This document shows positions 10,088 through 26,419 of a stretch of 64,000 bases of DNA, piece by piece. The stretch comes from an uncultured Aquimarina sp. (GTDB lineage: Bacteria; Bacteroidota; Bacteroidia; Flavobacteriales; Flavobacteriaceae): the NCBI GenBank assembly GCA_947498935.1, contig CANMMM010000010.1, positions 82,426 to 146,425 of the forward strand. The letters run 5' to 3'. The translations under genes were made by a program, and so were the position numbers. Numbering within the stretch: position 1 is the stretch's first letter; every line of letters starts with the position of its first letter. Under the pieces are notes generated by a model. The model had not been told where the DNA came from. It searched no databases and saw only the letters and a program-made list of their open reading frames with translations.

Positions 10088-10981
10088 ATGTCTTCTCAGT
10101 CTCGTTTGGATCGTGCTTATGCCAATGCACATGTGATTCCGTTTGATGATCAATCTAAATTTATTTTATTCAGTGATTGCCACCGTGGAGACAATAGTTT
10201 TGCAGATGATTTTGCTAATAACCGCAATATCTATTTTCATGCTTTGCAGCACTATTATCAAGAAGGCTATACGTATTGCGAGTTAGGAGATGGAGATGAG
10301 CTATGGGAGAATTTACATTTCAGCACTTTACTCAATGCACATAAGAATGTATATCGATTGCTTCGAAAATTTCATCTAGAAAACCGATTACAGATGATCT
10401 GGGGAAATCACGATATGGTATATCGTAATCCTGCATATGTACAAAAACACCTCAGTACTTTCTTTGACCCTAAAACTGGTAAAGACATTCCACTGTTTCC
10501 CGATATCCACTATCATGAAGCGGTACTACTACAACACAAAAACACAGCGCAATCTATCTTTTTATTACATGGACATCAGGCCGATTTTATGAACTATGTG
10601 GGATGGCGACTGAATCGTTTTCTAGTACGTGTATTATGGAAACCACTACAAATTGTAGGGATTGCAGATCCTACCAGCCCTGCAAAGAATTACAGAGAAA
10701 CGATCAAAGTAGAACGTAGACTTAAAAAATGGATTGCTGATCATGAACACCAAATGACGATCGTAGGTCACACCCACCGACCTCGATTTCCAGACGCGAA
10801 TGCGCTACCTTTATTCAATGCGGGTAGTTGCGTACATCCTAGATCGATAACAGGTATCGAAATCGCAGAAGGTCGTATTTCACTAATCAAATGGCAAATT
10901 GATACGAATAGAGATGGTGCTTTAAAGATTATCCGTGTACCACTAGAAGGGCCACAAGCACTTAGTGATTTTAGAAAGTAG
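10088..10981 (+). CDS. Metallophosphoesterase (LpxH/UDP-2,3-diacylglucosamine hydrolase-like)
   Basis: FSDCHRGDNS, GDGDELWE, WGNHDM, GHTHRP metallophosphatase motifs. Confidence 0.88.
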   Translation: MSSQSRLDRAYANAHVIPFDDQSKFILFSDCHRGDNSFADDFANNRNIYFHALQHYYQEGYTYCELGDGDELWENLHFSTLLNAHKNVYRLLRKFHLENRLQMIWGNHDMVYRNPAYVQKHLSTFFDPKTGKDIPLFPDIHYHEAVLLQHKNTAQSIFLLHGHQADFMNYVGWRLNRFLVRVLWKPLQIVGIADPTSPAKNYRETIKVERRLKKWIADHEHQMTIVGHTHRPRFPDANALPLFNAGSCVHPRSITGIEIAEGRISLIKWQIDTNRDGALKIIRVPLEGPQALSDFRK

Positions 10982-11046
10982 CACTATGAATCTCAAAAAA
11001 TCAAGTTAAACGATACAAGATCGTTTGTAAAATAGCTAAAAAAACG

Positions 11047-11087
11047 CACCTTGACTTTTTTTGTTAGGCACACAAAAAGTCAAGGTG
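11047..11087. terminator. Bidirectional intrinsic terminator
   Basis: CACCTTGACTTTTT...AAAAAGTCAAGGTG between convergent CDSs. Confidence 0.85.
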
Positions 11088-11106
11088 AGCTTAAAGTGTA
11101 AACACC

Positions 11107-11346
11107 TTATTCTATATTGATTACCTCTTCTATCTGAGGCGCGTATTTTTTGATGGTCATTTCTACACCAGATTTTAGTGTCATCTGATTTACACTACAC
11201 CCTACACAGGCACCTTGTAATTGCACCTTCACACGCTTATCATCTTCGATAGCCACCAAAGAAATATCTCCACCATCACTTTTTAGAAAAGGGCGAATTT
11301 CTTCGAGAGCTTTTTCTACATTACTTCTTATTTCTTTAGATGTCAT
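11107..11346 (-). CDS. NifU C-terminal domain Fe-S scaffold protein
   Basis: LKSDGGDISLVAI...GACVGCSVNQMTLKSGVE. Confidence 0.93.
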   Translation of the reverse strand: MTSKEIRSNVEKALEEIRPFLKSDGGDISLVAIEDDKRVKVQLQGACVGCSVNQMTLKSGVEMTIKKYAPQIEEVINIE

Positions 11347-11349
11347 CTC

Positions 11350-12495
11350 TTATTTTTTTACAGCGGCACAGCCTGCCATTGTTGTTATCTCTATTGCTTC
11401 TGTAGGTGGTAAATTCTCATTTCTAGCGACGACCTCTCTCACCACATTTTTTGTCAATTCATCAAATGCTTTTTCGATCGGTGTATCGGTTTGCAAAGCA
11501 GCGGGTCTACCTACATCTCCTGCTTCTCTAACGCTTTGCACTAATGGGATTTCTCCTAAGAAAGGAACTGCTATATCTTCTGCTAGATGCTTAGCACCTT
11601 CTTTCCCAAAAATATAATACTTATTATCTGGCAACTCCTCTGGTGTAAAGTAAGCCATATTTTCTATAATTCCTAATACGGGTACGTTAATGCTTTCTTG
11701 CTGGAACATTGCCACCCCTTTCTTAGCATCTGCTAATGCTACATTCTGTGGTGTACTTACGACTACCGCTCCTGTAATAGGCAATGATTGCATGATAGAC
11801 AAATGAATATCTCCTGTACCTGGAGGTAGATCTATAAGCATAAAATCTAATTCCCCCCAAGCAGCATCAAAAATCATTTGATTTAACGCTTTGGCAGCCA
11901 TCGGCCCTCTCCACACAACTGCCTGATTGGGTTGTGTAAAAAATCCTATGGATAGTATTTTTACTCCGTAATTTTCTACAGGCTTCATCTTAGACTTGTC
12001 ACCTACACGTACCGATAAAGGACGTTCTCTTTCTACATCAAACATAATCGGTGCAGAAGGCCCATAAATGTCTGCATCTAACAATCCCACACTAAAGCCC
12101 ATTTTAGCCAAGGTTACCGCTAGATTAGAAGTTACTGTAGATTTCCCTACACCTCCCTTACCAGAGGCAACGGCGATGATATTTTTAATCCCAGGAATAG
12201 GTTTTCCTTTGATTACCGGAGGCTTATTAGGTGCTGTAGCAGCTGGTGCTTCTACTTTGATATTCACCTTTACTTTTGCTTTTTCATATACTTTTTCATG
12301 AATCACTTTCATTATATCTACCTCTGCTCTTTTGCGAATGTTCAATGCAGGTGTAGCAACTACTAAATCTACAATAACTTCGTCTCCAAAAGTGATTACA
12401 TTGGTCACAGCACCACTCTCTACCATATTTTTCCCTTCACCTGCTACAGTGATGGTTTCCAACGCTTTGATAATTTCAGTTTTTTCTAACTTCAT
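11350..12495 (-). CDS. Mrp/NBP35 family ATP-binding protein
   Basis: ASGKGGVGKSTVTSNLA, DADIYGPS, LPPGTGD motifs. Confidence 0.95.
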   Translation of the reverse strand: MKLEKTEIIKALETITVAGEGKNMVESGAVTNVITFGDEVIVDLVVATPALNIRKRAEVDIMKVIHEKVYEKAKVKVNIKVEAPAATAPNKPPVIKGKPIPGIKNIIAVASGKGGVGKSTVTSNLAVTLAKMGFSVGLLDADIYGPSAPIMFDVERERPLSVRVGDKSKMKPVENYGVKILSIGFFTQPNQAVVWRGPMAAKALNQMIFDAAWGELDFMLIDLPPGTGDIHLSIMQSLPITGAVVVSTPQNVALADAKKGVAMFQQESINVPVLGIIENMAYFTPEELPDNKYYIFGKEGAKHLAEDIAVPFLGEIPLVQSVREAGDVGRPAALQTDTPIEKAFDELTKNVVREVVARNENLPPTEAIEITTMAGCAAVKK

Positions 12496-12664
12496 GTATA
12501 TAATTTCTTTTTCCAGCCAAGTAGTCGAATATGCGATTACTTCATTGCAAAGATAGGCTGAAAAGTTAACAATCTAAAACCTTGTTTATCGAATTACGAC
12601 TATGAATTTTACCTATACAAACAACTACACAACCTATTGATATAATCACTATCTATGCTATTGA

Positions 12665-13012
12665 TTACAGTCCCAGTTCGAGCGTAGGGTCCCAAAATAG
12701 TGCGGTGAATTCTTGTACCTGATCATCCTCCACCGTTATACCTTCATTTTCGAGCAATTGTTGCATAAGGTTTGTCCCCTGAAAATGATGCTTTCCTGTA
12801 AGCACTCCTTTTCTATTGAGCACACGATGCGCAGGAACTTCTTCTAGTTGTGTATGCGAAGCATTCATAGCCCAACCTACCATTCTAGCGCTACGTGCAG
12901 CCCCAAGATAGTTAGCTATAGCGCCATAAGAAGTAACTCTCCCATAAGGAACTTGTCTGACCACTTCATATACTCGCTCAAAAAAGTTGGTGGTTTTGTC
13001 ACTATATTTCAT
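12665..13012 (-). CDS. MGMT-family alkyltransferase-like protein (ATL type)
   Basis: VPYGRVTSYGAIA...ARMVGWAMN...VPAHRVLNRKG; the PCHRV cysteine is replaced by Ala. Confidence 0.9.
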   Translation of the reverse strand: MKYSDKTTNFFERVYEVVRQVPYGRVTSYGAIANYLGAARSARMVGWAMNASHTQLEEVPAHRVLNRKGVLTGKHHFQGTNLMQQLLENEGITVEDDQVQEFTALFWDPTLELGL

Positions 13013-13637
13013 CCCAGGTGTAGATTATTCTGGCTACGGTAACACATACCAATACTAGCATTAATGCGCCCATAAAATAATTGGTATACTTAGCAACTAC
13101 TACCGTTTTCTTTTCGATCTTTAGAAATGACACCACATACAGATATAAGGTAGCAAATGTTCCTGTTGCTGCTGCAATCCCAAAAATAAAAATATGAACA
13201 GCATCATATGCTATTTTTCCACTCACACTTAATGCTGCTGCTACAGCACAAAAATAGGGTATAGGCAATACATTGATCACCGACATCATAACCCCTTTAA
13301 AGAAGCTACGAGAACCCCCATGTTTGTACACCTTAATTTTGGTATTATTCTTTTTACCTTTTACAAAAAAATAGATCGCCATGAATAAGAATAGCACAGC
13401 CCCAGTACGCAATAACATGATCCGTACATAAGGATTGTAAAAAATATATTTCGCTAGCAAAACAGCTAATAATGCCTGAAAAAAAACGACCACAGAAGCG
13501 CCTATAGCTACTAATATCCCATTTTTCTTCCCGCGCTCTAAACAGGTTTTAGCCACACTCATATTCACCAAACCTGGCGGAATCACTCCTACGAATGATG
13601 CAAAAAATGTAACTATAAACAGGCGTGTAGTTTCCAA
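13002..13637 (-). CDS. LysE-family amino-acid exporter
   Basis: PPGLVNMSVAKTCLERGKKNGILVAIGA, multi-TM hydrophobic profile. Confidence 0.8.
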   Translation of the reverse strand: METTRLFIVTFFASFVGVIPPGLVNMSVAKTCLERGKKNGILVAIGASVVVFFQALLAVLLAKYIFYNPYVRIMLLRTGAVLFLFMAIYFFVKGKKNNTKIKVYKHGGSRSFFKGVMMSVINVLPIPYFCAVAAALSVSGKIAYDAVHIFIFGIAAATGTFATLYLYVVSFLKIEKKTVVVAKYTNYFMGALMLVLVCVTVARIIYTWDEI

Positions 13638-13651
13638 ATTAATGAAGGTGA

Positions 13652-14326
13652 TTAAACAATTTTAAACTGAATGTAAGTTATAGGTTTATTTTCTTCTAAG
13701 TATTGTTTTTCGTAAAAAGTTTGAATAGATGTCACCTCTTCTGGCGATCCTTCTTGGTGATATATATTATGATTTGCATACAATACCTCGTGCCCCTCTC
13801 CATGCAACAACCCTAATGTATACCCATGCATAAATTCACTATCCGTTTTTAGATGCATAATACCATCGGGTTTCAACACCTTTTTATAGCGCTGTAAAAA
13901 ATCGTGATTGGTCATTCTATGCTTTGTACGCTTATACTTAATTTGTGGATCTGGAAAGGTGATCCATATTTCGTCTATTTCATTTTCTGCAAATAAGTGT
14001 TCAATAAGTTCTATTTGGGTACGAATAAATCCGACATTGGTCATTTCCGACTCTATTGCAGTTTTAGCACCACGCCAAAAACGCGCTCCTTTGATATCGA
14101 TCCCTATAAAGTTTTTTTCTGGATATTGCTCTGCTAGCCCTACGGTATACTCCCCTTTTCCACAACCTAATTCCAATACAATAGGTTGCTCATTTTTAAA
14201 AAATTGTTGCTTCCAGTTTCCTTTATATCCAAGTGCATTAGTCAACACCTCTTCTCGCGTTGGTTCTACTACGTTTGTAAAGGTTTTATTTTCATTAAAA
14301 CGCTTTAACTTATTCTTGCTTCCCAC
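13652..14326 (-). CDS. trmB: tRNA (guanine-N7-)-methyltransferase
   Basis: LELGCGKGEYTVGLA, WITFPDPQIKYKRTKHR, LKTDSEFMHGYTL. Confidence 0.95.
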   Translation of the reverse strand: MGSKNKLKRFNENKTFTNVVEPTREEVLTNALGYKGNWKQQFFKNEQPIVLELGCGKGEYTVGLAEQYPEKNFIGIDIKGARFWRGAKTAIESEMTNVGFIRTQIELIEHLFAENEIDEIWITFPDPQIKYKRTKHRMTNHDFLQRYKKVLKPDGIMHLKTDSEFMHGYTLGLLHGEGHEVLYANHNIYHQEGSPEEVTSIQTFYEKQYLEENKPITYIQFKIV

Positions 14327-14547
14327 GAATCTATTTCTTTGTTTACCTTATTAACTATCCCTTATTTATAACTACCAATCAAGCACCTACAGCAAAACTT
14401 GGATCATATTACCAACATGTTAACTGCTTTCGTTATAAAATAATTTTTTGGTAAAATTAAGGAAATATCTGCTTTAAAGAATACTATTAATTTTAAAATT
14501 ATTGATAGTCAACAATTTGCTCTGTAATACATTAAAAATTAATTGAT

Positions 14548-15603
14548 TTGAATAAAAAGGTATTAATCGCCCCACTGAATTGGGGTCTAGGACATGCGAC
14601 ACGCTGTATTCCTATCATCAACGCACTTATCGGACAAGGTTTTGACCCCGTAATTGCATCGGATGGAGCTGCGCTTTCGTTATTACGAAAAGAATTCCCA
14701 ACATTACAAACAGAAGAATTACCTTCTTACAATATAGAATATGCAAAAAAGGGAAGCAACTTTAAGTTAAAGATGCTGCTGAACAGTCCTAAAATAGCGC
14801 ATGCTATTTCTGCAGAAAAAAAAGCTACTAAAAAGATTTTAGCATCTGATGATTTTTACGGTATTATCTCTGATAATCGTATGGGGGTACGTAATAAACG
14901 AGTACCATCGGTGTTTATCACGCACCAACTAACAGTACTTAGTGGTAAAACAACTTCTATTAGCACTAAGCTACACAATAAGTATATCAAAAAATTTGAT
15001 GTTTGCTGGGTACCTGATATGGCAGACGATCCTAATCTAAGTGGAGAACTAGGACACCCAAAAAAACCTACGATTCCTGTAACGTATTTAGGACCATTGA
15101 GTAGATTCAACTACCAGAACCTACCTAAAAAATACGATATTATGGTATTGCTATCAGGACCTGAACCGCAACGCACCATGCTAGAAGAAAAGCTCCTCCA
15201 AGAATTCGAAAAAAGCGACAAAGAAATTGTATTTGTTCGCGGAGTGATTGAAGCGTCACACAAGACCTACGTAAAAGACAATATCACCATCCACAATTAT
15301 CTTACAGGTACTGCACTAGAAAACACTATTAACAGTAGTAACATCATCATTTCTAGATCAGGATATACCACTGTAATGGATCTGGCTAAGCTAAAGAAAA
15401 AAGCTTTTTTCATTCCTACTCCTGGTCAATTCGAACAAGAATACTTAGCAGAACGTCTTACTACCAAAAAGTTAGTTCCGAGTTGTAAACAACATGAATT
15501 TACACTCAAACAACTCTATGATCTGAATACTTACAAAGGATTAAGTAGTTTTAGCACCGACATCGACTATGGGGAACTTTTTCACTTTTTCCAGAGTAAA
15601 TGA
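14548..15603 (+). CDS. Glycosyltransferase (MurG/MJ1255-like)
   Basis: IAPLNWGLGHATRCIPIINAL...SRSGYTTVMDLAKLKKKAFFIPTPGQFEQEYLA; TTG start. Confidence 0.85.
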   Translation: MNKKVLIAPLNWGLGHATRCIPIINALIGQGFDPVIASDGAALSLLRKEFPTLQTEELPSYNIEYAKKGSNFKLKMLLNSPKIAHAISAEKKATKKILASDDFYGIISDNRMGVRNKRVPSVFITHQLTVLSGKTTSISTKLHNKYIKKFDVCWVPDMADDPNLSGELGHPKKPTIPVTYLGPLSRFNYQNLPKKYDIMVLLSGPEPQRTMLEEKLLQEFEKSDKEIVFVRGVIEASHKTYVKDNITIHNYLTGTALENTINSSNIIISRSGYTTVMDLAKLKKKAFFIPTPGQFEQEYLAERLTTKKLVPSCKQHEFTLKQLYDLNTYKGLSSFSTDIDYGELFHFFQSK

Positions 15604-16620
15604 GAATTCACTCCCTATTCTATAGTCACTTTCTATATAAATGCGTTCATGGTGTGCCTCGATGATATGTTTTACAATCGCTAATCCTAATCCAGAACCC
15701 CCTTCTTTTCGAGAACCACTTTTGTCTACTCGATAAAAACGCTCAAACAATCTAGGGATATGCGCTTGTGCTATCCCTTCGCCATTATCTGTAACTCGTA
15801 CTATTACTTTATTTCGTATCAGGTTTTCTATACTTACCTCAGTAGTTCCATCTTCCTTTCCATACTTAATAGAGTTTACGATCAAATTAGATAGCACCTG
15901 CTGTATCCGTTCTTTATCTGCATGCACTTCTATAGGCTCATCATAATTCATATCAAAAGTGAGTGCTATATTCTTTTTAGATGCTTTCATCTCATACAAA
16001 TCAAACACACTTTGCACCAGTTCGATAATATCGAAACTAGTATAATTCAGATTCAGATCCCCTACTTCTAGCTTGGTAATCATATCCAAATCCTTTACGA
16101 TATATATCAATCGCTCCACTCCTTTATTAGCTCTATTCAGGTATTTCTCTAAGATGTTAGGATCTTTCATAGCTCCATCCAATAAGGTTAGAATATACCC
16201 TTGTACCGTAAACAAAGGGGTCTTTAACTCATGAGAAACATTGCCCATAAATTCTTTTCTGTAGTTCTCCCTTACTTTTAGTGTTTCGATTTCTGTTTTT
16301 CGCTTTTTTGCAAATTTTTCTACCTCCTTAATCAGTGTACGCATATCTGTAGTTACAGGACCTTCATCTACAGTATCCATATCTAACATTTCGATATCAT
16401 CATAGATTTTTCGAACCCTACGATAGATAAACTTTTGCACCCGGTATTGTACGATAAAAAAGCACACTAAATAGCATATGAATGCAAACCCTAGCACAAA
16501 AAATATACTAAACAATGATTGCGCATATAAAAAAACGCTCAGTACGAGCGTTAATATCATAGTTATATACATAGAGGACAGGTATGCGAACCTATATGAT
16601 TTTTTAAAATTTTCCGCCAT
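15541..16620 (-). CDS. PhoR-like sensor histidine kinase
   Basis: Two N-terminal TMs with almost no periplasmic loop; FMGNVSHELKTPL H-box; GSGLGLAIVKHIIEAH. Confidence 0.92.
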   Translation of the reverse strand: MAENFKKSYRFAYLSSMYITMILTLVLSVFLYAQSLFSIFFVLGFAFICYLVCFFIVQYRVQKFIYRRVRKIYDDIEMLDMDTVDEGPVTTDMRTLIKEVEKFAKKRKTEIETLKVRENYRKEFMGNVSHELKTPLFTVQGYILTLLDGAMKDPNILEKYLNRANKGVERLIYIVKDLDMITKLEVGDLNLNYTSFDIIELVQSVFDLYEMKASKKNIALTFDMNYDEPIEVHADKERIQQVLSNLIVNSIKYGKEDGTTEVSIENLIRNKVIVRVTDNGEGIAQAHIPRLFERFYRVDKSGSRKEGGSGLGLAIVKHIIEAHHERIYIESDYRIGSEFSFTLEKVKKFPIVDVGAKTT

Positions 16621-17303
16621 TATATTACAAACTTATAGCCGACTCCTTTGATAGTTTTAAAACTAGTATTTCCGATCTTTTCTCTAAGCTTACGAATATG
16701 CACATCGATGGTACGCCCTCCTACGATCACCTCATTTCCCCAAACTTTATCCAAGATGTCTTCGCGCTTAAATACTTTTCCAGGTTTAGATGCCAATAAT
16801 GCTAATAATTCGAACTCTTTTCTAGGCAATACGATCTCTTTCTTGTCCTTTATAATTTTATATTCATCTCTATTGATCACTAAATTACCTATTTTCACTA
16901 CATTTTCGGAGGTATCATCTTCTTTTAGACGACGTAATAACGCTTTTACTTTACTCACCAATACTTTGGGTCTGATAGGCTTGGTGATATAATCATCTGC
17001 TCCTGCATCGAAACCTGCTACCTGTGAATAGTCTTCTCCTCTAGCAGTCAAAAAAGTAATAATGGTATTTTGCAGATCAGGAACTCTTCTAATTTGTTCA
17101 CACGCTTCTATACCATCCATCTCAGGCATCATTACATCGAGTATAATCAAATGTGGTTTTTTCTTTTTAGCAGCTTTTACTGCCTCCATACCATTCTCTG
17201 CTGTTATCACATTATAACCTTCTGAGGTCAGATTATACCCTACAATTTCTAAAATATCTGGCTCATCATCTACCAGTAAAATTGTAATATCCTTTTTGTT
17301 CAT
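16620..17303 (-). CDS. PhoB/OmpR-type response regulator
   Basis: Receiver ILLVDDEPDILEIV...LDVMMPEMDG...KPIRP; winged helix VWGNEVIVGGRTIDVHIRKLREKIG. Confidence 0.93.
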   Translation of the reverse strand: MNKKDITILLVDDEPDILEIVGYNLTSEGYNVITAENGMEAVKAAKKKKPHLIILDVMMPEMDGIEACEQIRRVPDLQNTIITFLTARGEDYSQVAGFDAGADDYITKPIRPKVLVSKVKALLRRLKEDDTSENVVKIGNLVINRDEYKIIKDKKEIVLPRKEFELLALLASKPGKVFKREDILDKVWGNEVIVGGRTIDVHIRKLREKIGNTSFKTIKGVGYKFVI

Positions 17304-17411
17304 TGTTCTGTAAATTATATCACTACTATGGTAAATATACTATGTTCAGCCGAAGTAATCACTACCTTTTAAACCTAGAAACAATAACCTAACTCAAAAA
17401 TTTTAAAAGGA

Positions 17412-17429
17412 TAACATTTCCTTAACATC
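17412..17429. promoter_or_regulatory. Putative Pho-box-like direct repeat (11-nt period)
   Basis: TAACATT-tcct-TAACATC (17412-17418, 17423-17429), between the PiT stop and the response regulator start. Confidence 0.5.
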
Positions 17430-17436
17430 GTTACTC

Positions 17437-19824
17437 CTATGCCTTATGATCCCTATACGTGGTCAATAAATTCATCGTGGCGGTGATTAGGTCTTTCGTC
17501 TCTGTTAACAAACTAAAATACAAAGTCGTATTTTTAGGACTGTTTTCTTCTGTTCGAGTTCTAGCAACTTGCTTGCTTATTTTGTCATTTACGATCGTAA
17601 ATAACTGCTGTTTTTCTTCAATCAGCATATTTAACTTATGGAACTCTCTCTTATCAAAGATATCTTTGATATTTACGAAGAAATCTGTTAAATGATCTTC
17701 AATCTCTTTTAAATCCTTGATTTGATTAAAGCGTAATTTCTTGTGGTTATTATTTACATGCTTATGTCCTGCTTTGGCGATATATTCTAAAGACTGCGTA
17801 ATATCTTCTAAATACCCTAAAATAGATATATAAAAATTACTCGCCCCTACACTCGATTCATCAAGATTCTTGATAAAATAAAAGATACTATCTCTTAACT
17901 CCTCGACTTCTGCTTCTAATTTAGCAATTCCTTTTCTACTCTTTTTTAGTGCTGCCAGATCGTATTTCGCTAAACTATCGATTGTATTTGCGTAGATCTT
18001 ATTCCCTCTGTTTACGAAAGAATTAATATTATCTGCACTCTCTTCAATGACTCCTTGAATAGAGCTACTCTCTGATTTTTTGAGACTGTGCTCTTCTTTA
18101 TCTGCTCTGGTCTTATTTCTGTACTTAATCGTATTGCGCACCAATAAGAACACAGCTACTAATAACAGTACCCCTGTCATTATAGGCTGATGCAGATTGA
18201 TTAAAAATGCAATCAATGCTGCTGCGACGAATGCACTGAAGGCTGTAAAAAACCATCCTCCAATTACATTTAATACTCCTGCCACTCGGTATACCGCACT
18301 TTCTGTTCCCCATGCTCTATCTGCCAATGAAGTACCCATCGCTACCATAAAGGTAACATAAGTAGTAGACAGTGGTAATTTCATAGAAGTAGCTATAGAA
18401 ATCAACACTCCAGCTATCATTAGATTCACAGCTGCTCGTACCATATCAAAAGCAGGCATATCTTCTTTACGTACCGCTATTGAAGCTGGTACTTCTGTAA
18501 ATTGTTTCCCTACAAAACGCTTAAAACTATCAGGAGTGATTGCAGATACATACTCTGACAATACAACGGTTCCTCTTACGACCCCCCTAGACAAAAAATT
18601 AGGATGGAATTTTTCATCTCCTTCTCCTTGTCTAGACAAATCAATGGATGTTTTGACTACATTTCGCGCTTTGGTAGAAAACCAAAGTGTCAATACCATC
18701 ACCAAGCCAGCAAACAATAATAAGGAAGTCGGCGTTTCTGCTTTACCACTTAATGAACTCATCAAAAATTCATTAGCAGCTGCTCCAGATTTCATCCACA
18801 TTTGATATCCTTCCCAAGCTGCGATAGGAACACCTATAAAATTTACTAAATCATTCCCTGCAAAAGCCAATGCCAATGCAAATGTACCTACAATAATGAT
18901 CAATCTATAAATGTTGGTTTTAAACACCATCATGAGTAGATAAGATAGTAATGACATCACTACAAAACCAGCTGCTACTATAGAAAGCACATTGGTTTCT
19001 AAGAAGCCTCGAAGTGTCATCGCTATGGTTCCTGCTGCTGCATCTATCTTAAATAAATCCTTTTTAGCTTTTATAAGTGCTTCTACAGTCTCATAATTAC
19101 TCTTAAAATAGATATTTGCCCAATCTAAGAAAGACAACCCAGCATCTTTAGAAACTAAGGTCACGATTTCTTTGGCGTAATTCGTACCTTTTATTCCTTT
19201 GATAAAAATAAAGTACAATATCGCAGTGAGTGCAACTCCTCCGAATAGCGCTCCAACCCATTTTGCCTTTTTCTGAAAATTGAAAGACAGTAATAATCTA
19301 GATATATATTGTACAAAGGCTCCGACCGAAAAAGCTACCACGACAGATAATAAGATTCCTAGAATAATCTCTCCTGCCTTTTTGGTATTTATATAGTCTC
19401 CTAAATCTGCAATTGACAACTCTGCATCTGCTCCTATTTTTAATAATGCAACACATACTGCAGCTCCTAACAACTCAAAAACAATAGACACCGTAGTAGA
19501 AGTAGGCATCCCTAGTGTATTAAAGAAGTCTAATAGTAGAATATCTGTGATCATGACCGCCATAAAAATGATCATAATCTCATCGAAATAAAACTCACTA
19601 GGTACAAAAATTCCTTTTCGAGCGACTTCCATTAATCCACTAGAAAAAATAGCTCCCGCTGCAATCCCTACGCTTGCTACGATCATGATGGTTCGAAAAG
19701 AAATCGCCTTAGAACCTATAGCAGAATTCAGAAAATTCACTGCATCATTACTCACTCCCACTATCAAATCTGCAATGGCTAACAATGCCAATGCTACAAT
19801 CATCCAAATGTAAATATCATCCAT
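17437..19824 (-). CDS. Inorganic phosphate transporter (PiT family) with C-terminal PhoU-like domain
   Basis: GVSNDAVNFLNSAIGSKAI and GMPTSTTVS PiT signatures; C-terminal ~200 aa soluble helical region resembling DUF47/PhoU. Supplied GTG start at 19848; ATG at 19824 (MDDIYIW) is more likely. Confidence 0.9.
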   Translation of the reverse strand: MDDIYIWMIVALALLAIADLIVGVSNDAVNFLNSAIGSKAISFRTIMIVASVGIAAGAIFSSGLMEVARKGIFVPSEFYFDEIMIIFMAVMITDILLLDFFNTLGMPTSTTVSIVFELLGAAVCVALLKIGADAELSIADLGDYINTKKAGEIILGILLSVVVAFSVGAFVQYISRLLLSFNFQKKAKWVGALFGGVALTAILYFIFIKGIKGTNYAKEIVTLVSKDAGLSFLDWANIYFKSNYETVEALIKAKKDLFKIDAAAGTIAMTLRGFLETNVLSIVAAGFVVMSLLSYLLMMVFKTNIYRLIIIVGTFALALAFAGNDLVNFIGVPIAAWEGYQMWMKSGAAANEFLMSSLSGKAETPTSLLLFAGLVMVLTLWFSTKARNVVKTSIDLSRQGEGDEKFHPNFLSRGVVRGTVVLSEYVSAITPDSFKRFVGKQFTEVPASIAVRKEDMPAFDMVRAAVNLMIAGVLISIATSMKLPLSTTYVTFMVAMGTSLADRAWGTESAVYRVAGVLNVIGGWFFTAFSAFVAAALIAFLINLHQPIMTGVLLLVAVFLLVRNTIKYRNKTRADKEEHSLKKSESSSIQGVIEESADNINSFVNRGNKIYANTIDSLAKYDLAALKKSRKGIAKLEAEVEELRDSIFYFIKNLDESSVGASNFYISILGYLEDITQSLEYIAKAGHKHVNNNHKKLRFNQIKDLKEIEDHLTDFFVNIKDIFDKREFHKLNMLIEEKQQLFTIVNDKISKQVARTRTEENSPKNTTLYFSLLTETKDLITATMNLLTTYRDHKA

Positions 19825-19851
19825 AGGTTTAAAATTCTTATAAGGCACAAA

Positions 19852-19891
19852 AATGTTATTAAAATTCTAGTCCTATGTTATTGAAATGTTA
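19852..19891 (-). promoter_or_regulatory. Putative Pho-box-like array, four units, 11-nt period
   Basis: Minus strand: TAACATT-tcaa-TAACATA-ggac-TAGAATT-ttaa-TAACATT, then 8 nt, then TTATAAG. Confidence 0.65.
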
Positions 19892-20255
19892 TCTTTTTAA
19901 TCCACCAAACCCCCTGTATCGATTCAAAAAACAAACCAAGTATAACATAAAAAACACCTGTATTGGATTTTTTCTTTTTTGCCCCCTCCTCTTCTTTACA
20001 CTGCCCCTCACTATTAATTCCCTCCCCACAAACTCTCCTACCCACTCCCTAACACTTATACACAGCTTATTACAACCCAACTTCTAAAAAAACAAAGAAA
20101 CTAAACCCACTTTAACATTTTTTTAAATTCGCACTCATACACAGTTGTAATCCGGCTCTAACAAACAACAAATAACTATAAACCATACAGTTACCCCCAC
20201 AACAACACAACGCTTTACTTACGTAAAAACCTCAATTTCAATAAATTGAAACCTC

Positions 20256-20273
20256 AATGTTAATTCAATGTTA
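20256..20273. promoter_or_regulatory. Putative Pho-box-like direct repeat
   Basis: AATGTTA-attc-AATGTTA, an exact 7-mer pair at 11-nt spacing; 8 nt upstream of a TTG...TACATTTG promoter. Confidence 0.55.
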
Positions 20274-20281
20274 CCAAAAAG

Positions 20282-20312
20282 TTGCTTAAGAGTAAAATTA
20301 ATGTTACATTTG
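20282..20312 (+). promoter_or_regulatory. Bacteroidetes-type promoter TTG-N20-TACATTTG
   Basis: Matches TTG-N~19-TAnnTTTG; 42 nt upstream of the CDS at 20354. Confidence 0.7.
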
Positions 20313-20353
20313 TAATGTAATTATTAATAACACCCCAATAAAAATATATACAT

Positions 20354-20710
20354 ATGAAGACGATTTTAATGATAGCCGCTGTTCTTTTTTCGGGAATTAT
20401 GATGGCACAGGAAGCTAAACCTACCTTTGAGAAAGAAGGAAATACTATAAAAGGGACTTTTTTTCATGATAATGGAACTGTAAGTCAACAAGGATTTTAT
20501 AATAAAAAAGGAAAGCTTCATGGCGAATGGAAATCATATGACACTACAGGAAAGAAAATAGCTATGGGTCAGTATGAAAATGGACAAAAAACTGGAAAGT
20601 GGTTTTTCTGGGAAGGTGAAAAACTTTCTGAAGTAAACTATACCAACAATACGATTGCATCCGTAACTACTTGGTCTAATAAAAATGATGTTGTAATGAA
20701 CTTACAATAA
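20354..20710 (+). CDS. Small secreted MORN/YwqK-like repeat protein
   Basis: Signal peptide; GTFFHDNGTVSQQGFYNKKGKLHGEWKSYDTTGKKIAMGQYENGQKTGKWFFW repeats. Confidence 0.75.
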   Translation: MKTILMIAAVLFSGIMMAQEAKPTFEKEGNTIKGTFFHDNGTVSQQGFYNKKGKLHGEWKSYDTTGKKIAMGQYENGQKTGKWFFWEGEKLSEVNYTNNTIASVTTWSNKNDVVMNLQ

Positions 20711-20722
20711 ACAGTATACTCA

Positions 20723-20783
20723 GAAGTGGTTTACACTCTTTTCAATTAATTTGTTATAAGGTTGAAAAAGTATAAACCACTTC
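20723..20783. repeat. Short (61 nt) copy of the GAAGTGG inverted-repeat family
   Basis: GAAGTGGTTTACACTcTTTTCAA...TTGAAAAAGTATAAACCACTTC. Confidence 0.65.
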
Positions 20784-20802
20784 AATGAACTATCAATACT
20801 AT

Positions 20803-20832
20803 AAAGTGCTTATTATCAAATAAGCACTTTTT
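20803..20832. terminator. Intrinsic terminator
   Basis: AAAGTGCTTATT-atca-AATAAGCACTTTTTTT. Confidence 0.8.
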
Positions 20833-20883
20833 TTATGGAATTAGCTTATCCTACTGTACTATCTTGGCCAGTATTGTTGATTT

Positions 20884-20974
20884 GCGTTAGGGATTGCAGT
20901 GGAAATCCCACAGCCCCGACCATAGGAGGGGCGAGGAATTGTAGCGGAAAGCCCGACCCTTGTGGTAACGCCCT
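20884..20974 (-). repeat. GCGTTAGGGAT/AACGCCC structured element, copy 3 (alternative core)
   Basis: gcgttagggattgcagtggaaatcccacagccccgaccataggaggggcgaggaattgtagcggaaagcccgacccttgtggtaacgccct. Confidence 0.9.
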
Positions 20975-21075
20975 AAACTAACAGAGTAATATTACACAAT
21001 TTCATAAAAAATTGCAGTTCGTATTCCTTTTTCTAGAAAATTAACACCCTCCTTTTTTAACAATATACGTATTTG

Positions 21076-21114
21076 TAACACTCCCATAACACCCGAAAAC
21101 ATTTATTTAACATT
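21076..21114 (+). promoter_or_regulatory. Putative distal Pho-box-like cluster
   Basis: TAACACT-ccca-TAACACC (21076/21087) and AAACATT-tatt-TAACATT (21097/21108), each pair at 11-nt spacing. Confidence 0.5.
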
Positions 21115-21223
21115 GGTTTTATCCGCACACAAACTACTTAAAAACCCCTGTTAAAAAAGAACTTAAGCACTAAATAACCTATCACTGATCAACAATCAAC
21201 CCTGCAAAAAGTCTTAATTTTAT

Positions 21224-21300
21224 TAACATTTAAGTAACATTATCATCATCCTTTTTTAATTCGTAAATAACACACAGGTAACAATTGCTGTCGTTATTTG
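21224..21300 (+). promoter_or_regulatory. Putative proximal Pho-box-like array plus -7 element for the TonB receptor
   Basis: In-phase 11-nt units at 21224 TAACATT, 21235 TAACATT, 21246 TCATCCT, 21257 TAATTCG, 21268 TAACACA, 21279 TAACAAT, then 8 nt, then TTATTTG (21294-21300). Confidence 0.65.
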
Positions 21301-21322
21301 CACCGAATTTAGAACACGTTAC

Positions 21323-24124
21323 ATGAAAAAAATTTTGATTTTCTGTGCACTTCTTGTTGTTGGAATTACAAGTGCACAAGAAACGGGTACTGTTACAGGT
21401 ACATTAGTAGACAAAGAGGCAGGTGATCAACCACTTCCCTTTGCGAATGTATTAATTAAAGGAACCTCTAAAGGTACCACTACAGATTTCGATGGTATAT
21501 ACACTATAGAAAACATCCCTTCTGGAACGTATACTATAGAATTTAGTTTCGTCGGGTATGAATCACTTGAAAAAGAGGTTGTAATCATTGCTGACGAAAC
21601 GATTACAGTGAATGCTGCTATTGGTGCTAGTGCTGCTGCGTTAGACGAAGTAATCATTAAAACCACTGTTAAGAAAGAGTCTGAAGCTGCTATCTTATTA
21701 GAGCAAAAAAATGCAGTAAACATTCAACAAAAAATTGGTGCACAAGAACTCTCCAAAAAAGGGGTTAGTGATGTAGCGACTGGTTTAACAAAAGCAACTG
21801 GGATCTCTAAACAGAGTGATAAGTTATACGTACGAGGCTTAGGAGACCGCTATAATACTGCATACCTAAATGGATTACCCATCCCTTCTTTAAATCCTAA
21901 ATTAAAATTAATTGACCTTGGGATCTTCCCTACTGATATTGTAGAGAACCTAGGGATATACAAAACATATGCTCCTGATATTTATGGAGATTTTGCGGGA
22001 GCTAGTGTAAATATCGATACCAAGGATCGTCCTGGAAAAGGATTTCTTAAAATTGGTTTTAAATCAGGGATCAATACCAATGCTGTAGGTAACAAATTCT
22101 ATTTATTAGATGGTGGCCGATATGACCAATGGGGATTAGATGATGGGTCTAGAAGAGTCCCTATTTTCTTAGATATTCCTGAATACAATTACCGTAGTAC
22201 TGATATTGACTATTTTCCTTTTGACACTTCCTTTAACCCAAGAGAACGATTCAATGCTCCTGATGGTGGGTTTAGCATTTCGGGCGGAAAAAGTATCCAA
22301 CTAGGAGAAAATACTTCACAAAAATTAGATGTATTGGTATCTGCTTCTTTTGATCAAGGGCACCAAACTGCCTTAGGTGGTAGTGAAGCTTCTTTTAACG
22401 CACAAGGAGGAACTATTTTTAATCTTCCTGACGCTAGCAGGTATCGATACAAAACCAATACGACGCTACTAGGAAGTTTAGGATATCGCTGGAATAGTGA
22501 TAACAAGATTTTAGCGACATCATTATTTGTGAATGATACACAAGACGAATTGAGAGAAATGATTGGTATCGGTTCTGAAGCAGTAGATACTAGAATCTTC
22601 ATTAGAAGAGGAACCTATCAGCAAAACAGCTTATTCACTCAGCAATTAACCGGAGAACACAGATTTAACGAAGGTGTATACAAAGTATCTTGGGGATTGG
22701 CTTATAACAGAGCAGAAGGACTCATCCCAGACAGAAGGCAGTTATTTTTTACAGAAACAGCGCCTGGTAGATTGATATTAGGAGATAGAACAAGTCCTGA
22801 CTTCGCAAACAATCAGCGCTTCTACCAAGAACTGATTGAAAATGATTATTCCGGAAGAGTGGATTTTGACTATAACTTTGGAATCGACGAGGATGATAAC
22901 TTTAAACATAAACTAACGGTTGGAATTGCTGAACGTTTCAAAGAAAGAGAATTTGAAGCCAATCAATTAAACTACAATCTAAACAACTTTGTAAACACCC
23001 CTGTAGCGTTTGACAACCCAGACGCGCTTATCAACGAGGCTAATTTTAGCAACGGAACCTATCTCGTACTAGAAAACTTAAATAATACGCGTATTTATGA
23101 GGCTGACCTACATACATTAGCTGCCTATGCAAATCTACAATACCAATTTTCAGATAAACTGATATTTAATGGAGGGCTACGCGCAGAATTATTCGAACAA
23201 AATATCTTCTACAGAGAGATTCAAGACTTAGAAACAGCTCCTTTTAGACAAAGAACTATAGAGGAAACATTTCTACTACCCAGTATCAGTCTAAAATATG
23301 AGTTAAACGAGCAATCCAATTTACGTTTTGCTGCTAGTAAAACAGTAACCGTTCCAAAATTTACAGAAATTGCACCTTTCTTAGAGGAAGATATAACAGA
23401 GGTAACTTTAGGAAACCCTATTGTCACGAATTCAGACAACTATAATGTAGATGTAAAATGGGAACATTTCCCTGAACAAGCTGGTGAGTTGATCACTGCT
23501 ACACTTTTTGCAAAATATATAGAAAACCCTATAGAAAAATTGTTTGTATCCTCTGCTGCTAACGTGAATACATTTATCAACTCCGACAATGCTACTGTTT
23601 TAGGAGTAGAAGTAGAATACAAAAAGAATCTTGGTAACCTTTTTAAGGTAGAGGAAACTACTTGGAACAACCTCAACTTTGGTATCAATGCTACACTGAT
23701 GCACTCCGAAGTGACGATCGATCCTAATATCGTGACTTTTAACGGATCTAGTATTGCCCCAACCAACTTAAAAAGAAGACTGCAGGGAGCTTCTCCGTTT
23801 TTGATCAATACAGATCTTAGTTATGCCAAAGAAATAGCAGCACACTCGCTCATCGCTACGGTAGACTTTAACATCTTTGGAGACCGTATTTATGCTGCTG
23901 GAGGAATTGGCGCAGGAGATATTTTTGAAGATGGATATGGTACCCTCAACTTTAATGTTAAAGATCAGATAGGAGACCATTTCGAAATCAGCTTTAAAGC
24001 CAAAAACCTACTAAATCCATCTGTGCGTAGATATCAAGATCAAGAAGATTTAGATAGAGAATTTACTACCTATAACTATGATAATGGTATCAATATCAGC
24101 TTAGGTATTACCTACAAATTATAA
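21323..24124 (+). CDS. TonB-dependent receptor with N-terminal carboxypeptidase-like domain (pair 1)
   Basis: GTVTGTLVDKEAGDQPLPFANVLIKGT...DFDGIYTIENIPSGTYTIEFSFVGYE; plug RGLGDRYNTAYLNGLPIPS; C-terminal barrel. Confidence 0.93.
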   Translation: MKKILIFCALLVVGITSAQETGTVTGTLVDKEAGDQPLPFANVLIKGTSKGTTTDFDGIYTIENIPSGTYTIEFSFVGYESLEKEVVIIADETITVNAAIGASAAALDEVIIKTTVKKESEAAILLEQKNAVNIQQKIGAQELSKKGVSDVATGLTKATGISKQSDKLYVRGLGDRYNTAYLNGLPIPSLNPKLKLIDLGIFPTDIVENLGIYKTYAPDIYGDFAGASVNIDTKDRPGKGFLKIGFKSGINTNAVGNKFYLLDGGRYDQWGLDDGSRRVPIFLDIPEYNYRSTDIDYFPFDTSFNPRERFNAPDGGFSISGGKSIQLGENTSQKLDVLVSASFDQGHQTALGGSEASFNAQGGTIFNLPDASRYRYKTNTTLLGSLGYRWNSDNKILATSLFVNDTQDELREMIGIGSEAVDTRIFIRRGTYQQNSLFTQQLTGEHRFNEGVYKVSWGLAYNRAEGLIPDRRQLFFTETAPGRLILGDRTSPDFANNQRFYQELIENDYSGRVDFDYNFGIDEDDNFKHKLTVGIAERFKEREFEANQLNYNLNNFVNTPVAFDNPDALINEANFSNGTYLVLENLNNTRIYEADLHTLAAYANLQYQFSDKLIFNGGLRAELFEQNIFYREIQDLETAPFRQRTIEETFLLPSISLKYELNEQSNLRFAASKTVTVPKFTEIAPFLEEDITEVTLGNPIVTNSDNYNVDVKWEHFPEQAGELITATLFAKYIENPIEKLFVSSAANVNTFINSDNATVLGVEVEYKKNLGNLFKVEETTWNNLNFGINATLMHSEVTIDPNIVTFNGSSIAPTNLKRRLQGASPFLINTDLSYAKEIAAHSLIATVDFNIFGDRIYAAGGIGAGDIFEDGYGTLNFNVKDQIGDHFEISFKAKNLLNPSVRRYQDQEDLDREFTTYNYDNGINISLGITYKL

Positions 24125-24160
24125 TGACAAAAGAAACAGCGAACACAATTTTATATACAA

Positions 24161-25459
24161 ATGAAAACTAGAAATTTAATTACAGGAATCTTATGTAGTG
24201 CATCTATCTTATTTAGTGCATGTACAATACAAGAAGATAATATTGGAGATATTATTATCAACCAAGGAGGGAATACTGCTAATGAAACAGTAGTATTGCA
24301 AGGAGAGATTACAGAAAATACAACACTGGTAGCTTCTAAAGTATATGAGTTACAAGGAGGGGTTTCTGTAAAAGAAGGTGCTGTATTAACTATCGAAGCA
24401 GGTACTAGAATTATTGCTGGCGATGTAGGAGGAGTATTCTCGTACTTAGCCATCGAACAAGGAGCTAAAATAATGGCAGAAGGTACTGCTAGCCAACCTA
24501 TCGTATTTACCTCTAGCAAAGCTACTCCTAATCCAGGAGACTGGGGAGGATTATTAATCGCTGGTAGAGCTCCTATAAACAGACCCGGTTCTGTAGCGAC
24601 TACAGAAGTAGCTAGCCTTACCTATGGAGGGGAAAATCCAGCAGACAATTCTGGTATCGTAAGATATGTACGTTTAGAATACACTGGTGGAAAAATCAAC
24701 GCTGATGCAGAATATAACGGACTTTCTCTATACGGAGTAGGTAGTGGAACTACCTTAGAATTCATCCAAGCATTTAATGGAAATGATGATGGTATCGAGT
24801 TTTTTGGAGGTACTGCGAATCTAAAGTATGGTGTTGTTACTGGTGCTGGTGATGACTCTTTTGACTGGACTGATGGCTGGAATGGAAATGGACAGTTCTG
24901 GATTGCACAACAAACCACTAATGCTGGAGACAGAGGAATCGAAGCAGACAATCTAAAGTCTAACAATGCGGCTGCACCATTTTCTAACCCTACACTAGCT
25001 AACATCACATTAATAGGTGCAGATGATGGTGATGGAAAAAACAAAGGAATCTTATTAAGAAGAGGAACTAAGCTAACGCTACACAATGCTATTGTAAAAG
25101 GATTCCCAAGCAAAGGGGTAGAATTAAACGATGCGCAAACATTTACAAACCTAAATGCCAATGAAATCGTTATTAACAACTCTATCATCCAAAATGAGAA
25201 CGCATTTGATGTTAGTAGCGGTACTGCTACAGTAGACCTATCAGATTTTAGTGCTTTCTATAACTATACAACTGGTGGAACTGAAATCCCTGATGCATTC
25301 GAAATCAATGGTATCGTAGGAACCTATAGCTACACAGCTGCTGCTGACGGGGTAGATAACTTCGATCCATCTACCTTAGGAGCATTCTTTACGGCTGCTA
25401 ACTATGCTGGAGCATTACAAAAAGACGATACTTGGACTAATGGTTGGACTCGTTTATAA
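24161..25459 (+). CDS. Beta-helix-like lipoprotein paired with a TonB receptor (pair 1)
   Basis: Lipobox LFSACT; VKEGAVLTIEAGTRIIAGD, DWGGLLIAGRAPIN, GIEFFGGTANLKYG repeats. Confidence 0.8.
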   Translation: MKTRNLITGILCSASILFSACTIQEDNIGDIIINQGGNTANETVVLQGEITENTTLVASKVYELQGGVSVKEGAVLTIEAGTRIIAGDVGGVFSYLAIEQGAKIMAEGTASQPIVFTSSKATPNPGDWGGLLIAGRAPINRPGSVATTEVASLTYGGENPADNSGIVRYVRLEYTGGKINADAEYNGLSLYGVGSGTTLEFIQAFNGNDDGIEFFGGTANLKYGVVTGAGDDSFDWTDGWNGNGQFWIAQQTTNAGDRGIEADNLKSNNAAAPFSNPTLANITLIGADDGDGKNKGILLRRGTKLTLHNAIVKGFPSKGVELNDAQTFTNLNANEIVINNSIIQNENAFDVSSGTATVDLSDFSAFYNYTTGGTEIPDAFEINGIVGTYSYTAAADGVDNFDPSTLGAFFTAANYAGALQKDDTWTNGWTRL

Positions 25460-25484
25460 TCGAACCCACCTCCCATAATATGCA

Positions 25485-25522
25485 AAAAAGCACCTTGGCA
25501 TGTCTGCCAAGGTGTTTTTTTT
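25485..25522 (+). terminator. Intrinsic terminator of receptor/lipoprotein pair 1
   Basis: CACCTTGGCA-tgtc-TGCCAAGGTG followed by TTTTTTTT. Confidence 0.88.
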
Positions 25523-25819
25523 ATACCACCCATAAAAGTCGTAACCAATAACCATAGTTACAAACCTCAACCAGTACCATGACTCCTAGTTAACTTTGAG
25601 ATAATATCCACTGCTAGTATTATGAAAATAATAGGACACTAAAAATGACGTCAAAAACAATTCCAAACACAACCACAAGACAAACAATACATTACACATA
25701 CTTTATTAAAACTACCTTAAAAAAACACGCATACTAGACCGATTTTAAATCACATTTATTTAATCCAAGAATAACACTGACATAAAGAAAATTATCCCAA
25801 AACCTTTGTTATTTGTATT

Positions 25820-25957
25820 CGAATTTATAGACGATACCACATACACTTTTGCACTACTAAAAAAGTAGTACCATATAACGATACGTGTTCGTAGAAGACT
25901 GAAAAATCATTAATATCCAACAACATTAATGCCCCTTTTCGGTCTTCTCTTTTTTTA
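25820..25957 (+). ncRNA. Candidate small RNA between the two TonB-receptor pairs
   Basis: Preceded by TTATTTG (25809-25815) with flanking sequence like both receptor promoters; hairpin ACTACT-aaaaa-AGTAGT; terminator-like stem GAAGACTGAAAA...CATTAAT/ATTAATG...TTTTCGGTCTTC + TCTTTTTTT; no CDS. Confidence 0.45.
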
Positions 25958-26419
25958 GAGCACTTCATCCTTTTTACAATTACGGATCAACACGGCTAAT
26001 TTGCACAATGGCACATCTACTTACTACTCTAATTCCCTTATCACTTACAACAAATCTTTGCAAAAAAACGATAAAAAACTCCTAAAAAAACATAAAATCA
26101 TAGATGTATCACTAACTTAAATTATCCGAATGTTAAGCCACTAACGATCATCTTCTTGGATTTAACTTCTACTTAAAAAACTCATAACATTAGTATTTCC
26201 ATACCCTATACATCTATCTGTAATTCCATAGCATTCAAAAACCAAAAACCCCCTATATAACAATACCTTACCTAAAAAAATTCTACTACTTAAGAGACTT
26301 CTTACTAAAAAAAAACAACACCACCTTCCATTACAATCCCATAAAAAAAGCATAATAATAGGGTAATTCATTCTACTGTAAAACCGTATTTATTTGTACC
26401 AGAATTTTACGAATACGAA

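Follow-up and report, generated by a model that had tools for sequence, protein, structure and literature searches.

Phosphate starvation shapes marine and soil Bacteroidetes, and depletion responses have been measured in some of them. A locus of an uncultured Aquimarina sp. (Flavobacteriaceae), analysed here in a stretch of 64,000 nucleotides (the 64-kb window), raises the question of whether TAACATT-type words repeated around phosphate genes are the operator of the PhoB-type regulator encoded next to them and, if so, how such an operator is built into a Bacteroidetes promoter. On the minus strand of the window the gene order is phoR, phoB and PiT, and on the plus strand a MORN-repeat gene, TonB receptor 1 with a putative lipoprotein and receptor 2 with a second such protein. 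The genes under consideration are the following:

15541-16620, minus strand: phoR-like sensor histidine kinase (HisKA and HATPase_c domains)
16620-17303, minus strand: phoB-like response regulator with receiver and winged helix (Response_reg and Trans_reg_C)
17437-19824, minus strand: PiT-family phosphate transporter (PF01384 PHO4, 7.2e-30)
20354-20710, plus strand: small secreted MORN-repeat-like protein, assigned by synteny and by MORN_2 at 6.2e-07, just under the cut-off, and kept in the locus
21323-24124, plus strand: TonB-dependent receptor 1 (Plug, TonB barrel and CarbopepD_reg_2)
24161-25459, plus strand: putative lipoprotein 3' of receptor 1, without Pfam match and named from its position beside the receptor

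The phoR gene adjoins phoB also in the phoB loci of other genera examined. PiT, the nearest relatives of which are Aquimarina proteins of up to 86% identity, is taken to start most plausibly at ATG 19824 rather than at GTG 19848, because a -7-like element sits between both. In many relatives, an approximately 400-aa gene located directly 5' of PiT encodes a phosphate-selective O/P-type porin (PF07396), which is absent from this part of the window. In one Aquimarina clade (L021-L042), a chromate-transporter gene is found between the MORN gene and the porin, and the MORN array faces the chromate transporter too.

The first-pass annotation of this DNA had described TAACATT-type units in 11-nt registers at several sites, and all of them were recovered. 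Allowing at most one mismatch per unit, the window contains six pairs at 11 nt, all located between 17412 and 21241, compared to 1.28 on average and at most 5 such pairs in 200 runs of simulated sequence of the same dinucleotide composition. In genome-wide pattern searches, exact TAACAT-N5-TAACAT occurs at five places in the 4.77-Mb genome versus one for the reversed-pattern control; four of the five fall in this 4-kb stretch and the fifth is in coding sequence. Among 80 related loci, exact TAACAT pairs were counted 95 times at 11 nt, 44 times at 22 nt and 39 times at 33 nt, with zero to three at each other spacing from 6 to 39 nt. While the window is 62% A+T, such that TAACATT-like words are common and chance matches in AT-rich intergenic DNA might be suspected, this origin is refuted by the spacing and control counts; together with the conservation in many genera and the absence of control matches when genus and family were scanned with the strict pattern, they make it exceedingly improbable.

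Which genes carry the arrays, and in which orientation, is highly selective. With a criterion of at least 12 of 14 matches for a pair, and in counts that overstate significance as relatives share ancestry and are not independent trials, a direct pair precedes PiT in 73 of 81 upstream regions (inverted in 0/81), the O/P-type porin in 45 of 47 and receptor 1 in 54 of 84, the last compared to 2-8 at neighbouring spacings. An inverted pair, on the other hand, is found upstream of the MORN gene in 61 of 62 and upstream of phoB in 32 of 38 (direct in 1/38), and in a family-wide phoB set in 18 of 30, with 2/30 direct and 0/30 at 10 or 12 nt. For the array genes, neighbouring spacings mostly give single figures, except for 14 nt at the MORN gene (30 regions). 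Elsewhere in the locus, genes such as those for the glycosyltransferase and Mrp show a pair at 11 nt in 0/11 to 0/33 cases. The glycosyltransferase (14548) and the phosphoesterase (10088) were considered as regulon members and rejected, being without boxes; the genes from 10088 to 14548 give zero at 11 nt.

The direct arrays and the promoter elements associated with them are:

19852-19891, minus strand: direct Pho box of PiT, TAACATT-N4-TAACATA-N4-TAGAATT-N4-TAACATT, recognized by its units and by comparison with relatives
19837-19843, minus strand: -7-like element TTATAAG of the PiT promoter, assigned by position
21224-21285, plus strand: direct Pho box of receptor 1 with six units in phase, two of them weak, recognized in the same way
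21294-21300, plus strand: -7 element TTATTTG of receptor 1, 8 nt past the last unit (21279-21285)

Six in-phase units had been claimed for receptor 1; four agree with the consensus in 5-7 of the 7 positions, but the other two in only 3 of 7. About 110 nt upstream of this array two further pairs are observed, 21076/21087 (TAACACT/TAACACC) and 21097/21108 (AAACATT/TAACATT; 21076-21114), for which no conservation was seen in relatives.

The arrays stand in a fixed phase to the -7 element. An 8-nt spacer between the last unit and the -7 element had been proposed for three promoters; it is exact at PiT and at receptor 1. The string quoted for receptor 2 is present as given but does not form a TAACATT array. 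In relatives, WWNTTTG is found at 19 nt (8+11) from the last strong unit of PiT in 57 of 73 cases, and TTNTTTG follows the receptor-1 array at 8 nt (8 cases) or at 52 nt, that is 8+44 or four further 11-nt turns (35 cases). Of 45 porin promoters, 39 have TTNTTTG at exactly 8 nt past the last unit, with no other distance among those listed. In some genera receptor 1 or its lipoprotein is divergent from phoB, and the intergenic region between the two genes again contains arrays; in L179, L180 and L199 the distance from the end of the last in-phase unit to the -7 element is 8 nt, and in L179, L193 and L199 receptor 1 is the gene divergent from phoB, an arrangement suggested also by the locus numbering of Flavobacterium johnsoniae. 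A -33 TTG, 17-23 nt upstream of the -7 element, is found in only 2 of 41 porin and 2 of 48 receptor-1 promoters, versus 44 of 59 MORN promoters. As TTG is rare at porin and receptor 1 and kept at the MORN gene, the direct arrays appear to stand in for the -33 element, which supports the idea put forward in the first-pass annotation.

Receptor 2 had been considered as a third Pho promoter and is rejected as such. Its promoter carries a distinct element of approximately 65 nt, ACAATCCCTTAAACTAA...ACTGTAAAACCGTATTTATTTG (26330-26396 of the window), which is strongly conserved across Aquimarina up to the -7 element (L006-L077) and generally present as one close copy per Aquimarina genome, while a direct pair was found in 1 of 14 cases. 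By this sequence criterion, receptor 2 should be removed from the Pho genes unless its expression indicates otherwise.

At phoB and the MORN gene the arrays run against the gene:

17379-17429, plus strand: inverted 11-nt array upstream of phoB, TAACATT at 17412 and TAACATC at 17423, with weaker in-phase units at 17379, 17390 and 17401
17332-17339, minus strand: -7-like element TATATTTA of the phoB promoter, assigned by position
20256-20306, minus strand: inverted array over the MORN promoter, units at 20256, 20267, 20278 (weaker), 20289 (weak) and 20300
20282-20284, plus strand: -33 TTG of the MORN promoter, mostly 20 nt from the -7 element in the relatives that have it, overlapped by an inverted unit
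20305-20312, plus strand: -7 element TACATTTG of the MORN promoter, assigned by position

The inversion at 17412 and 20256 had been noted as a caveat; the units are indeed inverted, but rather than a flaw of the motif they represent a second conserved class of sites. Their geometry is conserved as well: 28 of 32 phoB promoters have TAnnTTT[GA] 89-90 nt from where the inverted array starts, and in 47 of 61 relatives the MORN -7 element keeps a constant distance to the array. Inverted arrays might be repressor sites, with phosphorylated PhoB (PhoB~P) over or next to the -33 element shutting both promoters off. The MORN units, which overlap a retained and intact -33 TTG and in this species also the start of the -7 element, would fit such a function, whereas the phoB array is located well upstream of the -7 element in Aquimarina, and the rise of phoB by log2 3.06 upon phosphate depletion of F. 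johnsoniae favours activation for this gene at least. Repression at both genes is a serious possibility but falls short of being probable, and activation is the better guess at phoB because of this induction. More tentatively still, one PhoB operator word might be used in two orientations, direct in place of the missing -33 element at uptake genes, and inverted for autoinduction of phoB as well as for an opposite, phosphate-starvation-repressed control of the MORN gene.

A motif scan for enrichment at phosphate genes, suggested in the first-pass annotation as a check, was strongly positive in its strict form. In 69 genomes of the genus, two units plus spacer and -7 element with one mismatch were found at 30 places versus 0 for the reversed-pattern control; 26 of them precede the porin or receptor 1, and the remaining four appear to be due to chance. 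The same pattern without mismatch gave 17 places versus 0 in 300 genomes of the family, nearly all at porin or PiT. A relaxed pattern in 289 genomes of the class gave 9 places versus 6 in the control, no clear enrichment in number, and the strict form is therefore regarded as a family-level feature. The eight class-scan places outside the own genome include a PF01663 phosphatase, a Na/Pi cotransporter and two TonB receptors. Two relaxed-pattern matches in different genera (L232 and L233) are each followed by a gene for a secreted protein that has a PRASQ motif close to the N-terminus.

In the own genome, the strict -7 search with three mismatches gave 9 versus 6 control matches, of which only the two at receptor 1 are meaningful. 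Strong PhoX homologs of the own genome and relatives are without a clear array, and a second, weaker group of PhoX-like lipoproteins has suggestive but unconvincing repeats. As PhoX and the glycosyltransferase are without boxes in this genome, the Aquimarina regulon looks mainly local by this motif. The pstS gene of a Kordia MAG has an in-phase array upstream. A search with PF12849 did not find a pst system in the genus Aquimarina; the matches obtained there look by sequence like LysR-type regulators and were rejected as PstS.

Against the 11-nt direct-repeat definition of the Pho box given in a review (PMC4415409), these promoters contain at least two direct repeats of about 7 bp at an 11-bp period. 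The array replaces the upstream promoter element at 8 nt, modulo 11, from the -7 element, a response regulator of the PhoB family is encoded in the genome, and arrays precede genes of phosphate acquisition (PiT, O/P porin, pstS, Na/Pi cotransporter and PF01663 phosphatase). The comparative evidence thus bears out the proposal of a Bacteroidetes Pho box which is in phase with the -7 element and replaces the -33 element at phosphate genes beside phoB and phoR. The arrays are very probably flavobacterial Pho boxes, head-to-tail TAACATT-N4 sites predicted to be bound by PhoB~P from 16620-17303.

A single strong ortholog of this phoB product is encoded in each of 58 of the 61 Flavobacteriaceae genomes, with 59-87% identity outside its own genome. 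In a PDB search, the DNA-binding domain of the phoB product gave a match to E. coli PhoB (1gxp) at 1.4e-13, and several other family members score closer than PhoB, which leaves the identity of the regulator unfixed by sequence alone. An 11-bp direct repeat could be bound by some other winged-helix response regulator of the OmpR/PhoB type, with phoB a mere neighbour of the arrays. That five genes of a phosphate locus, phoB itself among them, carry arrays, that arrays or matches recur elsewhere at pstS, a phosphatase and a Na/Pi cotransporter, that the 16620-17303 regulator is near-universal in the family and that its F. johnsoniae counterpart is induced by phosphate depletion render such a different regulator improbable.

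Comparable in gene content is the 'PhoBR operon' of F. johnsoniae, the genes of which are, judged by synteny and annotation, the likely counterparts of those in the window. Upon phosphate depletion, its receptor is raised by log2 8.0, the lipoprotein by 9.9 and phoB by 3.1, phoR shows no significant change and the porin is not raised (PMC8115612). The lipoprotein at 24161-25459 is the probable counterpart of Fjoh_0546 (form II), as it occupies the same place beside the receptor. An ortholog of the glycosyltransferase without box in this genome is likewise induced in F. johnsoniae (PMC8115612). The matching gene set with strong induction of receptor and lipoprotein is described there by expression data only; a term search of the main text of that study retrieved neither 'Pho box' nor a motif. 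For the PhoRB system of Bacteroides fragilis, which belongs to the same phylum as the system considered here, PhoB has been demonstrated by gel shift to bind the pstC promoter (PMC3547664), and a term search of the main text found no binding motif. Putative Pho boxes have been reported in plcP clusters of marine bacteria, and the passages of that work on plcP clusters contain no Bacteroidetes motif (PMC4796936).

The arrays share with the E. coli Pho box the tandem 7-bp units with 4-bp linkers, the regulator of the PhoB family, the phosphate genes and the placement in lieu of the upstream promoter element. Unlike the E. coli box with its CTGTCAT core, the core here is TAACATT, followed at a fixed 8 nt by the Bacteroidetes -7 element (TTnTTTG), arrays of at least four in-phase units are common and the phoB array is inverted. 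The PhoP box of Bacillus subtilis consists of TTAACA-type 11-bp direct repeats. Its core word and period are very similar, but it operates in another promoter system and phylum and is not known to have porin or TonB-receptor targets.

In the mechanism that we propose, PhoB~P would bind the tandem array at PiT and receptor 1 of this species and at the porin of relatives such that the last bound unit ends exactly 8 nt before the TTnTTTG-type -7 element. In this position it could replace the missing -33 TTG and recruit the housekeeping sigma factor at low phosphate. At phoB, the inverted array upstream of the core promoter would most likely serve autoinduction, while at the MORN gene the inverted array over the intact -33 element may activate or repress; binding, phosphate response in this species and the sign of control at the inverted sites are here inferred from the conserved arrangement. 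A PhoB site is a known kind of switch, but its sequence and geometry were not found described for Bacteroidetes in the open-access literature. With word, period, spacing and orientation defined, the regulon becomes predictable from sequence, and the arrangement indicates a way in which the -33 element of the unusual promoter of Bacteroidetes could be substituted by an activator.

Two observations concern further genes. On L227:263-1459, a PI-PLC-C1 (PF16670) gene has a motif match approximately 40 nt upstream, on the opposite strand; in F. johnsoniae this family, too, is regulated by phosphate. An HD-domain (dGTPase-like) gene close to receptor 1 in other genera is accompanied, on the same strand, by TAACATT pairs (L048, L052, L056, L062, L066, L074, L075, L078 and L085), possibly linking phosphate and nucleotide pools.
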